This document shows positions 2,856 through 48,483 of a stretch of DNA of 64,000 nucleotides, piece after piece. The position numbers and the translations under genes were made by a program. The number at the start of each line of letters is the position of its first letter. Within the stretch, counting starts at the first letter, position 1. A model generated the notes under the pieces. That model was given only the letters and a program-made list of their open reading frames with translations, was not told where the DNA came from and did not search any database. This DNA comes from Paenibacillus sp. W2I17 (GTDB lineage: Bacteria; Bacillota; Bacilli; Paenibacillales; Paenibacillaceae): positions 4,464,001 to 4,528,000 of the forward strand of contig NZ_JAUSXM010000001.1 in assembly GCF_030815985.1 (NCBI RefSeq). The letters are read 5' to 3'.

Positions 2856-3167
2856 TTAAAATAATCCCGGAATATTCATGCCGCCTGTGAACTTGCCCAT
2901 ATCCTTGTTGGCAATCTCATCAGCTTTGGCCATTGCGTCATTAACAGCTGTCATAACGAGATCCTGCAACATTTCAACATCTTCCGGATCTACCGCCTCA
3001 GGTTTGATCGTGATAGCAAGCAATTTCTTGTGTCCGTTAACTTCAGCCGTCACTACACCGCCACCAGAAGTACCTTGGACTGTTTTGTCCGCCAGTTCCT
3101 CTTGTGCTTTCAGCATTTGCTCCTGCATTTTCTTCACTTGTTTCATCATTTGGTTCATGTTGTTCAT
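2856..3167 (-). CDS. YbaB/EbfC family nucleoid-associated protein
   Basis: 103-aa protein of the YbaB/EbfC family, small DNA-binding dimers of the nucleoid. The N-terminus is methionine- and glutamine-rich ([15 protein letters not shown]) and forms the typical long helix; the centre has the [15 protein letters not shown] strand region. Located between dnaX and recR, the standard position (yaaK in B. subtilis). Confidence 0.95.
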
Positions 3168-3208
3168 AATTGTTCATCTCCTTTGTTATGGTTATCGCGC
3201 TATGCGCA

Positions 3209-4954
3209 TTATTCTTTGATCACTACAAGGTCCTCACCAAAGAGCTGGATGGCTTCATCAATCCAAGGCTGCTTGTTGCCTGAACCGCCGTCTTCATGCT
3301 CAGGTTCAAGCTTAAAGTCCTCCTTTGGCGCTTCAGAAGCTCCCTCCATTGCTCCGGTCCAATCTTTGAGCATCATCGTCACCAATCGTGCAGGACGCCC
3401 AAGCTGTTCGGACAACACCCGCTCAATGACTTCACGGTTAGCCTGCTTCTCCGTTGTTTCACGGTGAATGTTGTTTTTAAAAGCAACCAACACATTGTCC
3501 TCAAGCAATGATACCGGCTCACCATCCACAAACCAGGCGTGAACGGTAACCCGCTCTTCCTTCACTCGTTGCAGGATCTGACTCCATTTTTTGCTGATCT
3601 CTGCGAACTCAGGGGCTCCCTTGCGCGCAACATACTGATCCAACTGTGCAGGAAGCTTCGCAGGCGAGTTGCCTCTCGATACAGGGGCCCTTGTTGCCGG
3701 ACGAGATGGAGCACTCGATGCACCTTCTCCACCAGACAAACCACTTTTCAGTGCACGATCCAACTTCTGCTCCAACTCAGCAAGCTGCTGCTTCAAGCGG
3801 TTGATCTCTCCCCCATCGGCAGGTGCTGCATGAGCTGAAGCTCCCACCTGAACAGAAGCCTCACCTTGAGCTGGAATACTACACAGTTTAAGCAATGCAA
3901 CTTCGAATAATGTCTGTGGTTGTACTGCATATTTCATTTCACTCTGGTACCGATTAAGGGTGTCTATCATGTGGAACAGTTGTTCCCTGGTGAATGACTC
4001 CGCCATATCACGGAAAGATTCCGGATTAAGTACCCGGTCCGTCAGTTTATCTGCATTAGGTACCATCTTAATCATAAGCAAATCACGGAAATAATACAGC
4101 AAATTCTCCATACACTTGTCTGCACTCTTTCCTTCATGCATGAAACCTTCAATCATCTGCAAAATATGACCAACATCACCTTTGAGCAGCGAAGCAGCCA
4201 GTTTGGCAAATTGCTCTGAAGCAATTCCACCCGTCATGTCCATAACCTGCTGGTACGTTACTCGTCCATCCGTAAATGAAGAGATCTGATCCAGCACACT
4301 AAGCGCATCCCTCATTCCACCGTCCGATAAACGGGCAATGTATTGGAGCGCATCCTGGTCAGCTTCCATGCCTTCCTGTTCACAGATCAGTGTAAGTCTT
4401 GCTGTCTGTTCTTCCAGGGATACCCGGCGAAAATCAAATCGCTGACAGCGCGATATAATGGTAGCCGGAAGGCGGTGTGGTTCCGTTGTTGCCAAAATAA
4501 ACATCACATGTGGTGGTGGCTCTTCCAATGTTTTGAGCAAAGCATTGAATGCCTCCGTTGTCAGCATGTGCACTTCATCAATAATATAGACTTTCTGCCG
4601 GACTTCGGTTGGCGCATATTTAACCTTTTCCCGAAGATCACGGATTTCCTCAACGCCCCGATTGGATGCAGCGTCAATCTCCTGCACATCCATCACAGCG
4701 CCAGTCGTAATTCTGCGGCAAGCTTCACACTCGTTACAAGGTTCAGGCGCAGGCCCACGTTCGCAGTTCACAGCTTTGGCCAAAATCTTGGCGGCACTTG
4801 TCTTTCCCGTTCCTCTGGGCCCGCTAAATAAGTAGGCATGGGAAGTCCGCTGTTCACGAATCGCGTTCTGCAAGGTCTGAATAATATGCTGTTGCCCCAC
4901 CATATCTTGAAACGACTGGGGACGCCAAGCCCGGTATAACGCGATATGCTCCAT
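3209..4954 (-). CDS. dnaX: DNA polymerase III subunits gamma/tau
   Basis: 581 aa. DnaX is the AAA+ motor of the clamp loader that opens the beta clamp and ties polymerases to the helicase. Walker A GPRGTGKT lies at 45-52, a zinc-binding cluster uses Cys64, 73, 76 and 79, and Walker B/DExH (IDEVHML) follows near 125. After the AAA+ part comes a Gly/Ser/Ala-rich linker (about 365-425) and a tau-specific C-terminal domain. No clear slippery frameshift site was noticed. First gene of dnaX-ebfC-recR; promoter at 5005-5032. Confidence 0.97.
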   Translation of the reverse strand: MEHIALYRAWRPQSFQDMVGQQHIIQTLQNAIREQRTSHAYLFSGPRGTGKTSAAKILAKAVNCERGPAPEPCNECEACRRITTGAVMDVQEIDAASNRGVEEIRDLREKVKYAPTEVRQKVYIIDEVHMLTTEAFNALLKTLEEPPPHVMFILATTEPHRLPATIISRCQRFDFRRVSLEEQTARLTLICEQEGMEADQDALQYIARLSDGGMRDALSVLDQISSFTDGRVTYQQVMDMTGGIASEQFAKLAASLLKGDVGHILQMIEGFMHEGKSADKCMENLLYYFRDLLMIKMVPNADKLTDRVLNPESFRDMAESFTREQLFHMIDTLNRYQSEMKYAVQPQTLFEVALLKLCSIPAQGEASVQVGASAHAAPADGGEINRLKQQLAELEQKLDRALKSGLSGGEGASSAPSRPATRAPVSRGNSPAKLPAQLDQYVARKGAPEFAEISKKWSQILQRVKEERVTVHAWFVDGEPVSLLEDNVLVAFKNNIHRETTEKQANREVIERVLSEQLGRPARLVTMMLKDWTGAMEGASEAPKEDFKLEPEHEDGGSGNKQPWIDEAIQLFGEDLVVIKE

Positions 4955-44377: not shown

Positions 44378-45661
44378 TTAAGAGCGACGTGCAATCACAC
44401 TTGCACCGCCCATATAAGGACGCAATGCTTCAGGAATAACAACCGTACCATCTTCCTGTTGATAGTTCTCCAGGATAGCGGCTACCGTCCGTCCAACGGC
44501 CAATCCTGACCCGTTCAATGTATGCACAAATTCCGGTTTGGCTTTTGGCTCTCTGCGGAAACGGATATTGGCACGACGTGCTTGGAAGTCCTCACAGTTG
44601 GAGCACGAAGAAATCTCACGATAAGTGTCGCTCTCAGGCAACCACACTTCAATATCATACGTTTTAGCTGAAGTGAAGCCCATATCTGCCGTGCACAATG
44701 TCAGGACGCGATATGGCAAGCCCAACAATTGAAGCACACGCTCCGCATTTTGAGTCATTTGCTCCAACTCTTCATACGAAGTCTCCGGAGTAGAGAGCTT
44801 GAGCAGCTCTACTTTGTTGAATTGATGCTGACGAATCAAGCCGCGTGTATCCCGTCCAGCCGAACCGGCTTCAGAGCGGAAACAAGAGCTGTATGCCACA
44901 AAGTGCTTAGGCAATTGATCTACATTCAGAATCTCTTCGCGATGATAGTTCGTTACCGGAACTTCAGCAGTAGGGATCAGATAATATTCGGTATCTTTCA
45001 ACTTGAACAGATCTTCTTCGAACTTAGGCAGTTGACCTGTTCCAAACAAGCTGTCCCGATTAACGATGTATGGAGGCAGAATCTCTTCATATCCATGTTG
45101 ATCGCTGTGCAGATCCATCATGAAGTTGATCAATGCACGTTCCAGACGCGCACCCAGACCTTTATAAAAGGTAAAACGGGAACCCGTTACTTTGGCAGCC
45201 GCTTCAAAATCAAGAATATCGAGATCCTGCGCAATTTCCCAGTGTGCTTTTGGTGCAAAAGTAAATGACTTCGGCTCTTCCCAACGACGAATCTCAACAT
45301 TGTCGTCTTCAGAAGCTCCAATAGGTACACTTTCGTTAGGAATGTTCGGAATCGCCATTGTGAGATCATTGATCTTCACTTCCAGTTCCCGAACTTCCTC
45401 GTCCATGGCTTTGATTCGATCAGAGACTTCACGCATCTCCACAATCAGATCATCAGCATTCTCACGATTCTTCTTCAGTCTAGCAACTTCCGCGGAGACC
45501 GTATTCCGACGACTCTTCAGTGTTTCACTCTCTTGAAGCAATTCCCGACGCTTGGCATCCATCTCGGTAAATCCAGCGATAAGATCCAGCGATTTGCCAC
45601 GTTTAGTCAATGCTTCTTCTACACGCGCATACTCATTCCGCAATATTTTCACATCAAGCAC
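44378..45661 (-). CDS. serS: Seryl-tRNA synthetase
   Basis: 427 aa, GTG start at 45661 with AGGAGGGG upstream. Class II synthetase: long N-terminal coiled-coil (about 5-105) that reads the tRNA-Ser long arm, then the catalytic core with motif 2 [15 protein letters not shown] and motif 3 [16 protein letters not shown]. The anticodon UGA tRNA lies just downstream. No T-box was seen upstream (see rejected list). Confidence 0.97.
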
Positions 45662-45934: not shown

Positions 45935-46525
45935 TTATTTAGAGTCTACCGTGTGTTTGTAGGATCTGGCCATGTCTACAAAATAAGTATGCAGACGATA
46001 GTCATCCGTCAATTCCGGATGGTAGGAGCAAGCCAACAAATGTCCCTGACGAGCCGTAACAATCTCATCCTTGTATGTGGAGAGAACCTCCACCTGGTCT
46101 CCGACACTCTCGATCAAGGGTGCCCGTATAAACACAGCTCTTACCGTTTCCTCAATGCCTTTGACTGGCAAATCCGTCTCAAAACTCTCTCTCTGCCGCC
46201 CAAATGCATTTCGGGATACAGTCATATCCATTAGCTCCAAATGAGCTTCTTCTTGCCCTGCAATGTGTTTAGCCATAACGATCAAGCCAGCACAGGTACC
46301 AAATACCGGTTTGCCCTCAGCAGCAAACGCCCGAATGGCATCCATAAACCCATACTTGCGCATCAGTTTACCGATCGTTGTGCTTTCCCCGCCAGGAAGG
46401 ATAAGACCATCCAAGTCCTCCAATTGCCGAACCTGTTTGATAGCTATACCTTCTGCTCCAGCACGTTCAATACTTCGAATATGCTCTGTGACAGCTCCTT
46501 GAAGTGCTAAAACGCCGATCTTCAT
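45935..46525 (-). CDS. pdxT: PLP synthase glutaminase subunit
   Basis: 196 aa. PdxT releases ammonia from glutamine for PdxS, which builds pyridoxal 5'-phosphate. The class I glutaminase triad is visible: the nucleophile in GTCAGLIVMA, His in SYHPE with Glu two residues on, and the start MKIGVLALQGAV with GGEST. GAAGGGG precedes the ATG. Its partner gene pdxS should lie immediately upstream but is deleted (see next entry). Confidence 0.95.
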   Translation of the reverse strand: MKIGVLALQGAVTEHIRSIERAGAEGIAIKQVRQLEDLDGLILPGGESTTIGKLMRKYGFMDAIRAFAAEGKPVFGTCAGLIVMAKHIAGQEEAHLELMDMTVSRNAFGRQRESFETDLPVKGIEETVRAVFIRAPLIESVGDQVEVLSTYKDEIVTARQGHLLACSYHPELTDDYRLHTYFVDMARSYKHTVDSK

Positions 46526-46543
46526 ACGCTCATTCCCCTTCTC

Positions 46544-46567
46544 TTACCAGCCACGATCTTGCATACG
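46544..46567 (-). pseudogene. pdxS: Residual 3' end of pdxS (deletion scar)
   Basis: Reading the minus strand just before pdxT, the codons spell RMQDRGW then TAA. PdxS proteins end in RMQ(E/D)RGW. The stop is 18 nt before the pdxT ATG, which is the normal pdxS-pdxT spacing. The other roughly 290 codons are missing: only about 200 bp separate pdxT from dacA and they hold no other pdxS sequence. Confidence 0.75.
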
Positions 46568-46597
46568 GTAAACGAACATTGTACTTTTTCACTTCAT

Positions 46598-46626
46598 CAT
46601 ACGTGAATTCTAACTTGATATTTTAC
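46598..46626 (-). promoter_or_regulatory. Candidate sigma-A promoter left upstream of pdxT
   Basis: Minus strand TTGTAT, 17-bp spacer, TAAAAT, located about 80-100 bp before the pdxS scar. It may be the former pdxST promoter now driving pdxT alone. Confidence 0.4.
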
Positions 46627-46742
46627 CGGAAAAATTGTAAATATACAATCCATCCGGTCGGAATAACTTGTATTTTGTCAATGATATGACCATGTAAACA
46701 TTAAAATCATGATCATACTCTTTTCATGAAGTTTGTTATGGA

Positions 46743-48131
46743 CTAAAACAGGTTTTTAATCCCGTCAAAAAGATCCACAAAGAAATCCTTCACAGCACGG
46801 AAGAACAAACGGAACCATCCGCCTTTTTCAGCCTCTTCAGCAGTGATCAAGTTCACTGTTTTTTCCTGTGGCTCAATTCCCTCTGCTTTATACGTGTACG
46901 TTACCGTACCAACCTTTGTACCTGCCTTGAGTGGTGCTACCAACTTGTCAGCCTCAGTTACGTTGGCTTTGAACGTCACATCCAGATTCTGAGTACCTTT
47001 GGGAACAACAAAATTTACAGCATTATCTGTTACGACAGGAACTGTTGTTTCTTTACCTTTTTTCAAAGGTACCGCTTCCCAGCCCGTCACTTTGGTCTTG
47101 CCTGCGACAGCCTGTTTCACTTCAAAGTTGTTAAATCCATAGTCCAATACCTTTTTAGTTTCTCTGAAACGTGCGGATTCCGAATCTGTGCCCATAACAA
47201 CACTAATTAGACGCATACCGTTACGTTCTGCTGTACCTGTAAAGTTATTACCTGCGTTCGTGGTATGGCCTGTTTTCATTCCATCCAGACCTTCATACGC
47301 ATAGCTTTTGAAATTGGTTATATTTTTATTCGCTTCCAGCATCCAGTTGTAATTGATAATTGGAGCTTTATCATTTGGACGGAACTTATAGGATTGAATC
47401 GTTGTGAATTCTTTGTAGTCCGGGTGATCCATAATGATATATCTGCACAGAATCGCAGCATCCAGTGCGGACATCACTGTTTCCTTGTCTTCAGCTGGAC
47501 GGAAGTCAGCAGGCATATCTGCTCGATCGAGACCGGAAGAGTTAATGAAGAACGTATCCTTCATGCCCATACGTTTCGCTTCATCATTCATCATTTTCAC
47601 GAAAGCTTCTTCCGAACCGGCAACATACTCAGCCAAAGCAACCGTAGCATCATTGGCAGAGCCAACAGCCATAGCAATATATAGATCCTTGACTGTGTGC
47701 TCGTCACCTTCTGCCAGGAAAATACGTGATCCAACACTTTGTGCAGCATTCTTTTTAACAGGTACAATATCGTCCCAACCGAATTTTCCTTGTTTGACTT
47801 GTTCTGCGACAATGTACTCTGTCATCATCTTGGTCATACTTGCAGGTGGCATCGCTTTATCCGCATCGACATTTAGTAGAATCTGTCCCGTCGAGGCTTC
47901 CATAAGCACCGCTGATCTAACCTCAAGCCCAAGTGAGTCTACCCCAGGCACCTGTACGGCTTTCTCCGTCTTCGTTGTTGTTGCCGCAGCAGTCAGAACC
48001 TGACCGGAGTTATCCGCAGCAACCATGACCGGCATTACTGCAGACATGCAAAGCATGTTAATTAGCATTACCGAGGCTACGCTCTTTTTGAGCATTTGGC
48101 GTTTCTTTTTATTCATGTGTTTGGCTTTCAA
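46743..48131 (-). CDS. dacA: D-alanyl-D-alanine carboxypeptidase (PBP5-like)
   Basis: 462 aa from the TTG at 48131 (AAGGGAG 9 nt upstream). It trims terminal D-Ala from peptidoglycan. Signal peptide: basic start KKKRQMLKKS and a hydrophobic core to about residue 38. The S11 catalytic motifs are SMTK, a SAN-type second motif in VGSANDATVAL and KTGHT. A C-terminal PBP5 domain and an amphipathic membrane-anchoring helix (FRLFFRAVKDFFVDLFDG) complete it. Order guaB-dacA as in B. subtilis. Confidence 0.95.
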   Translation of the reverse strand: MKAKHMNKKKRQMLKKSVASVMLINMLCMSAVMPVMVAADNSGQVLTAAATTTKTEKAVQVPGVDSLGLEVRSAVLMEASTGQILLNVDADKAMPPASMTKMMTEYIVAEQVKQGKFGWDDIVPVKKNAAQSVGSRIFLAEGDEHTVKDLYIAMAVGSANDATVALAEYVAGSEEAFVKMMNDEAKRMGMKDTFFINSSGLDRADMPADFRPAEDKETVMSALDAAILCRYIIMDHPDYKEFTTIQSYKFRPNDKAPIINYNWMLEANKNITNFKSYAYEGLDGMKTGHTTNAGNNFTGTAERNGMRLISVVMGTDSESARFRETKKVLDYGFNNFEVKQAVAGKTKVTGWEAVPLKKGKETTVPVVTDNAVNFVVPKGTQNLDVTFKANVTEADKLVAPLKAGTKVGTVTYTYKAEGIEPQEKTVNLITAEEAEKGGWFRLFFRAVKDFFVDLFDGIKNLF

Positions 48132-48483
48132 TGATGAATACTCCCTTCGATCCAAAGCATTATTAATTGCTTCAGTGCAGCTTATGCTGCGATTTTCTTG
48201 TTCCCTAACCTGCGTGGTTGATGTATGAGATGTGTGCTATATGCGCTGTATCGAACGAGCAATATTATTGCTCCTAAAGTTCGTTATCGATTGTCACTTA
48301 GTCCGCATTTTGCAAATGCTTATGTAAAAGGACGTCCGCGCTTCTGTTTAGCTGGCAGCCATTTCTGGCACTGCAGTTGCTTTTCAAAACCATATTCATA
48401 GATTCACGTCAAATAGCCGCCGCAACGCCTTAATCCACCTATGGATCGTCACCGCTTGTTCTATTCTATCACAGGGGTATCTG

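Follow-up and report, generated by a model that had tools for sequence, protein, structure and literature searches.

The question raised by this locus is what became of pdxS. In Bacillus, the pdxS-pdxT (yaaD-yaaE) operon adjoins dacA and serS. In the stretch of DNA analysed here (the window, 64,000 nucleotides, positions 4464001-4528000 of the 7.01 Mb single-contig genome of a Paenibacillus soil bacterium), dacA, pdxT and serS are present, and pdxS is not found between dacA and pdxT. The PdxT of the window matches those of Paenibacillus xylanexedens and P. amylolyticus strains at 98-99%, which identifies these as close relatives. The genes dacA and pdxT, both on the minus strand, are separated by 217 bp (46526-46742), in agreement with the distance of about 200 bp given in the initial annotation, which proposed that an internal deletion had left the last codons of pdxS in front of pdxT. 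In the direction of transcription, the locus consists of the following parts:

46743-48155, minus strand: dacA, D-alanyl-D-alanine carboxypeptidase, the upstream neighbour (open reading frame; Pfam Peptidase_S11 and PBP5_C)
46605-46649, minus strand: promoter-like block of the former pdxS-pdxT operon, now 5' of pdxT alone (from conservation)
46568-46604, minus strand: remnant of the pdxS 5' leader, up to the deletion junction (from alignment to the intact relative G071)
46544-46567, minus strand: last seven codons of pdxS and its stop, RMQDRGW-stop (from the sequence and the alignment given below)
46526-46543, minus strand: spacer with a putative pdxT ribosome-binding site, GAGAAGGGG (by eye)
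45935-46525, minus strand: intact pdxT, for the PLP synthase subunit with glutaminase function (TIGR03800 of NCBIfam, 270 bits, cut-off 106)
44378-45661, minus strand: serS, the downstream neighbour (open reading frame; name taken from the initial annotation; used as a tree marker)

The minus strand of 46544-46567 reads CGT ATG CAA GAT CGT GGC TGG TAA and is followed by the 18-bp spacer and the ATG of pdxT. In G071, 1145 bp lie between dacA and pdxT, with the whole pdxS inside. The 40 nt across the tail are 95% identical to the 3' end of this intact pdxS (E = 1.2e-13) and have the same neighbours, and the 167 nt 5' of the tail, which make up most of the first 175 nt of the gap, match the G071 pdxS leader (86%, E = 1e-52). 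By this alignment, the RMQDRGW tail is a non-chance remnant of pdxS, as had been proposed, and the view that a candidate upstream promoter and pdxT were spared also holds, with a promoter-like block and an intact pdxT both in place. The deletion itself is likewise borne out, but not its estimated size of roughly 860 bp: the net loss relative to G071 is 928 bp (1145 minus 217) and includes the pdxS start codon. At the junction, about nt -69 of the pdxS leader is joined to about nt 859 of the gene (here and below, nt 1 of a relic is the A of the pdxS start codon). Since the start codon and about 286 codons are missing, a full-length product is impossible, and the remnant, homologous to pdxS at the orthologous place, is a pdxS pseudogene or relic.

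The whole-genome search for PdxS and PdxJ suggested in the initial annotation found one full pdxS, on the same contig at about 1.18 Mb, about 3.3 Mb from the window pdxT. Thus, among the explanations put forward at the outset, the presence of pdxS elsewhere proved to be correct. The product of the relocated gene (NF003215, 526 bits, cut-off 395; PF01680, 355 bits) matches PdxS 2nv1 over the full length, with identical motifs GVIMDV, VMAKARIGH and RTKGEPGTG, which we take to surround the catalytic residues Asp24, Lys81 and Lys149 (B. subtilis numbering). A second explanation was that the strain no longer makes B6 de novo and relies on uptake. The pdxS-pdxT pair is indeed broken in the window, and PdxJ was not found in the genome search, in which the controls were positive in 4 of 14 genomes. 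However, such dependence is very improbable in view of the full PdxS at about 1.18 Mb and of the low dN/dS of pdxS and pdxT in the pairs tested (see below); auxotrophy is not required, and the absence of pdxS beside pdxT must not be taken as a sign of it.

The relocated pdxS points away from a gene for a 507-aa protein, which scores as PdxR with the NCBIfam model NF052282 (440 bits, cut-off 320) and has a GntR DNA-binding domain (PF00392) and an aminotransferase domain (PF00155), as in the MocR subfamily. No pdxT follows the relocated pdxS; a terminator-like hairpin is seen there instead (by eye). The window pdxT is the sole match of the genome at E <= 1e-50, and the second PF01174 match scores 28 bits (cut-off 27). 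We also observed, adjoining the relocated pdxS (L004 4750-7263), a gene for an 837-aa protein that combines an AraC-type regulator domain with one of the GH39 glycosyl hydrolases.

Comparison with relatives, which had also been suggested, showed that the loss is not private to this strain. In a set of 69 named PdxT loci, the native pdxS was lost in 14, and all 14 genomes had a full second pdxS, each beside a PdxR homologue. P. xylanexedens DSM 21292 (L006) and P. amylolyticus Heshi-A3 (L070) belong to the class of the window's strain, and P. amylolyticus 27C64 has an intact pair. Paenibacillus sp. JCM 10914 (L043) was counted as intact in this set; its pdxT-linked pdxS (3104-3981) lies in two pieces in different frames, by a frameshift or a sequencing error, and no other pdxS was found in that genome. 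A systematic set comprised 75 genomes grouped as the same genus, all of which have pdxT and one or more pdxS matches above the cut-off. The pdxT-linked pdxS is kept in 42 of these and lost in 33, and every one of the 33 has a full pdxS elsewhere, which is beside pdxR in 31; among the 42 keepers a further copy occurs in 11, beside pdxR in 5. The association of the loss with having another full pdxS is strong when the kinship of the genomes is ignored (Fisher p = 6e-12). A PdxR ortholog (>= 79% identity) is encoded in 36 genomes, 5 of which keep both copies while 31 are without the pdxT-linked one. The 39 genomes without pdxR comprise 31 with the pdxT-linked copy alone, 6 with this and another copy, and 2 (G044 and G045; L229 and L230) that have lost it and have no PdxR ortholog. 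Therefore, PdxR is not required for the loss. The second pdxS of G044 and G045 is a different one, located 3' of a gene whose product is 30% identical to PdxR, and represents an independent relocation.

The relics at the lost loci fall into several types. R1 includes 18 genomes, the window's own among them; R2 consists of G049, G050, G089, G090, G091, G092 and G107, and R3 of G046, G056, G081 and G106. The remnant of the window class (145-218 bp) is found in 13 of the 75 genomes, including the window's own, and the other 20 losers have different relics. These counts bear on the third initial explanation, that an assembly or sequencing error dropped a segment between dacA and pdxT. Many draft contigs of the group do end a few kb from pdxT; the same remnant, however, is shared by 13 genomes, several of which are single-contig assemblies (G036, G070, G075 and G085), and the relics have diverged rather than been clipped, so that an error of this kind is next to inconceivable.

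The founding deletion of R1, from about -11 to 790 with everything from 790 onward kept, is seen in G104, G083, G086 and G039, and nested enlargements of it are found in G063 and the 13 genomes of the window class, with a further 5' deletion in G085. The single internal deletion of the initial annotation was thus right as to the removal and not as to its course, which was stepwise: G104, G083, G086 and G039 have a smaller deletion, of which that of the window is a nested enlargement. R2 has deletions from 33 to 235 and from 443 to 837, and every member except G089 has lost an additional piece; G055 has deletions from about -70 to 461 and from 553 to 789, with 461-553 kept; R3 has one from about -79 to 737, with 737 onward kept; and G066 one from 166 to 811, with everything up to 166 kept. 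Because a relic that keeps a segment cannot derive by deletion from a relic that lacks it, R1, R2, G055, R3 and G066 represent five founding deletions. The mutually exclusive contents of the relics require at least this number whatever the tree, and the deletion in G044 and G045 (about -100 to 827) is a sixth, judging from the phylogeny and their different second copy. On the tree of dacA, pdxT and serS there are 6 changes between lost and kept; when regain is barred, the same tree gives 7 losses (counted by hand), the extra one being G107. This genome shares the R2 junctions with the G089 group though its tree sister G100 is intact, and therefore recombination is likely to be behind its relic.

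As for the origin of the PdxR-linked copy, the 36 pdxS genes linked to pdxR form one clade on the pdxS tree (SH-aLRT 97), separate from the copies resident in these genomes. The displacing copy thus has a history different from that of the resident copy, as expected for xenologous displacement. Among 394 genomes of the wider family, PdxR was found at E <= 1e-180 in 39, namely the 36 and G180, G281 and G282; these three have a complete pdxR / pdxS-pdxT divergon and no other pdxS. G281 and G282, which belong to another genus, join the PdxR-linked clade (support 99/96), while G180 stands apart, and a position of G281 and G282 outside the clade was mildly rejected (AU p = 0.042). The sister of the clade including G281 and G282 is formed by the resident copies of G065 and G099. 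We do not claim a single arrival of the cassette, since monophyly of the three main pdxR-bearing clades was rejected on the pdxT-locus tree (AU p = 6e-116). On this tree, G105, which is without pdxR and has kept its native pdxS, is the sister of R3. In all 34 genomes of the three main pdxR-bearing clades (R1-R3), the contig with pdxR also has a helicase gene within 30 kb of it (24 bp to 29 kb in the 17 of 34 for which the distance was computed), and therefore the cassette is in a comparable region throughout; the same helicase is also present in five genomes without pdxR. The shared helicase neighbourhood suggests one ancestral cassette site, and a single arrival followed by loss in some lineages and linked transfers are both possible. 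In G076 (L244), the PdxR-linked pdxS falls inside the R1 copies and the pdxT locus groups with G054 in R2, which suggests transfer or conversion between clades.

At the second loci, pdxR is divergent from pdxS with conserved repeat boxes between them in 36 of 36 cases. The boxes in these spacers are PdxR-like, AAGTGGTACA being found within 1 mismatch and TATTGGATCTTTTT exactly in all 36. The motif of C. glutamicum PdxR is AAAGTGGW(-/T)CTA in direct repeat, according to PMC4494728, and PMC5320631 describes apo-PdxR as the activator of pdxST and PLP as an anti-activator. At the 75 pdxT loci, 230 nt scanned at each contained no close match to the boxes (at best 2-4 mismatches to AAGTGGTACA and 3-6 to TATTGGATCTTTTT). 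We also asked whether the palindrome CCGGAtggATTGTAtatTTACAATtttTCCGG of the old promoter might be a PdxR site and rejected this, because several genomes that lack pdxR have a near form of it, its conservation does not extend over the genus, and the pdxT loci have no close match to the boxes. Beside the 36 pdxR-linked pdxS genes of the genus, no pdxT match at E <= 1e-6 was obtained in the stretches fetched; alignments of 18-28 residues in G090, G091 and G092 were too weak (E 0.05-0.5) to be counted as pdxT remnants. A pdxT relic 3' of the second pdxS was sought at all 44 second loci and found in G096 and G097 (L257 and L258) only. Here the situation is a mirror image: after the second pdxS comes a pdxT in decay, of which about 40 N-terminal residues and a C-terminal piece are left; the native pdxS-pdxT pair is present and there is no PdxR ortholog.

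All 33 lost loci retain a recognisable promoter block, the ribosome-binding region of pdxT and the last few pdxS codons, the last of these partly mutated in some. The block at 46605-46649, which to judge from its elements is probably a promoter, consists of TTGTAT, 17 nt, TAAAAT and then ATCAAGTTAGAATTC. Mismatches to its 36-nt core number 0-2 at each of the 30 lost R1-R3 loci and 8-9 in G044, G045 and G066. These three nonetheless keep the downstream half (the GTAAAATATCAAGTTAG part), and G066 has as many mismatches as its intact sister G099. Among the 13 genomes of the window class, only 1 of 45 columns of the block varies. Pairs of these genomes differ on average by 0.143 in the sequence preceding the promoter and by 0.036 in the 25 nt that adjoin the block on its 5' side, compared with 0.003 for the block itself; the averages for the leader relic, the 18-nt tail and the spacer are 0.075, 0 and 0.103. 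The dN/dS of pdxT is 0.009-0.082 in six pairs in which both loci are lost and 0.102 for G066-G099, compared with 0.017-0.109 in seven pairs with intact pdxS; that of pdxS was low in the pairs tested, 2 of 15 being unusable (G054-G100, probably because of a codon shift, and G044-G071, because of saturation). Thus, both remaining genes, pdxS and pdxT, are under purifying selection. A shortened pdxT match was obtained at one lost locus, that of G039, whose pdxR and helicase genes also look broken.

The end of the relic itself varies in several ways. Its stop has changed from TAA to TCA in five R1 genomes (G035, G036, G074, G075 and G084; among L148, L149, L187, L188, L196, L197 and L199) and to TAT in G083 and G086, within the last 60 nt before pdxT. 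In G074, G084, G083 and G086, the relic MQDRGW is in frame with pdxT as a possible N-terminal extension, and an inserted nucleotide shifts it out of that frame in G035, G036 and G075 (frames and insertion by eye). Possibly by chance, the 18 nt ATGCAAGATCGTGGCTGG (46547-46564) show no variation across all 13 window-class genomes, beside relic sequence that does vary. One could suppose that the tail persists because it has itself acquired a function, as a short leader open reading frame (ATG CAA GAT CGT GGC TGG TAA) coupled to pdxT translation, and this invariance, next to 8 varying columns among 40 flanking ones, would fit. We nevertheless regard such a function as improbable: the ATG is broken in 3 of 4 R3 genomes, the tail of G104 has a 1-nt deletion, the stop is lost in 7 of 18 R1 genomes as listed above, no good ribosome-binding site is visible 5' of the ATG (by eye), and 18 invariant columns would arise at the flanking rate with a chance of roughly 2% (by hand).

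The displacement of the native pdxS by the PdxR-linked copy is well supported by gene presence and absence, deletion junctions, two-copy relatives, the single clade of PdxR-linked copies and purifying selection. Very probably, the operon was split in this way, and PLP synthase would now consist of a PdxR-controlled PdxS and a separately expressed PdxT. In the course of events that we propose, an ancestor would have had a second pdxS elsewhere on the chromosome (arrived or arisen there), divergent from pdxR and without pdxT. With two pdxS genes, the pdxT-linked copy would have become dispensable and been removed by internal deletions, tolerated only where the old promoter and the translation start of pdxT survived; the promoter and the ribosome-binding region would be kept because pdxT has no other copy. 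The enzyme would then be assembled in trans, with PdxS from the PdxR-linked gene and PdxT from the old promoter, and the unlinked subunits would presumably form the usual complex. To judge from the boxes and promoters, PdxR may activate the lone pdxS when PLP is low, with pdxT expressed outside PdxR control.

Why the native copy was lost so often is a separate question. One explanation is neutral reciprocal loss, in which either of two redundant pdxS genes could go and the regulator was irrelevant to which one survived. G105 kept its native gene without pdxR next to R3, G044 and G045, whose second pdxS is not accompanied by a PdxR ortholog, lost theirs, and G096 and G097 show decay on the opposite side. 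However, among genomes with a second copy, the native pdxS is lost in 31 of 36 that have pdxR versus 2 of 8 that do not, a weak comparison that ignores kinship. We give neutral loss slightly less than an even chance. It is possible, though doubtful, that selection for control and not mere redundancy drove the repeated loss, PdxS being under PLP feedback by PdxR and PdxT outside it, so that the subunit ratio shifts with PLP demand. The displacement of pdxS leaves 33 of 75 genomes with a split operon which, together with the living two-copy intermediates, form a natural experiment on whether complex assembly depends on co-expression from one operon, and the genus offers ready strains for testing the control of one subunit by PdxR.

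These loci can be compared with three known systems. The PdxR-pdxST divergon of C. glutamicum, L. monocytogenes, S. pneumoniae and B. clausii likewise has a MocR-type PdxR divergent from pdxS, with AAGTGG-like boxes between them; in contrast, the unit of this genus ends at pdxS, with no convincing pdxT beside it in 36 of 36 cases and pdxT at another locus. The pdxS-pdxT operon by dacA and serS has the same neighbours, promoter block and pdxT, and 42 of the 75 genomes keep its pdxS, whereas in the window this gene is cut to its last codons and in 33 genomes it is lost. Bacterial PdxS and PdxT form a 12:12 complex and are textbook partners in one operon; the proteins of Plasmodium reportedly form a large 12:12 complex as well. 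The split was unmentioned in the titles and opening lines of abstracts among the papers listed on PdxS, PdxT and PdxR in Paenibacillus or on their horizontal transfer, with few subscription journals covered. Finally, as in xenologous or paralogous gene displacement, the place of a decaying resident gene is taken by a homologue with another history, and there are intermediates with both copies. Here, however, displacement affects just one of the two subunits of an enzyme and thereby splits the operon, through at least five founding deletions in one genus. Although gene displacement by a homologue is known, the repeated splitting of the operon of a two-subunit enzyme within one genus is, as far as we have searched, new.
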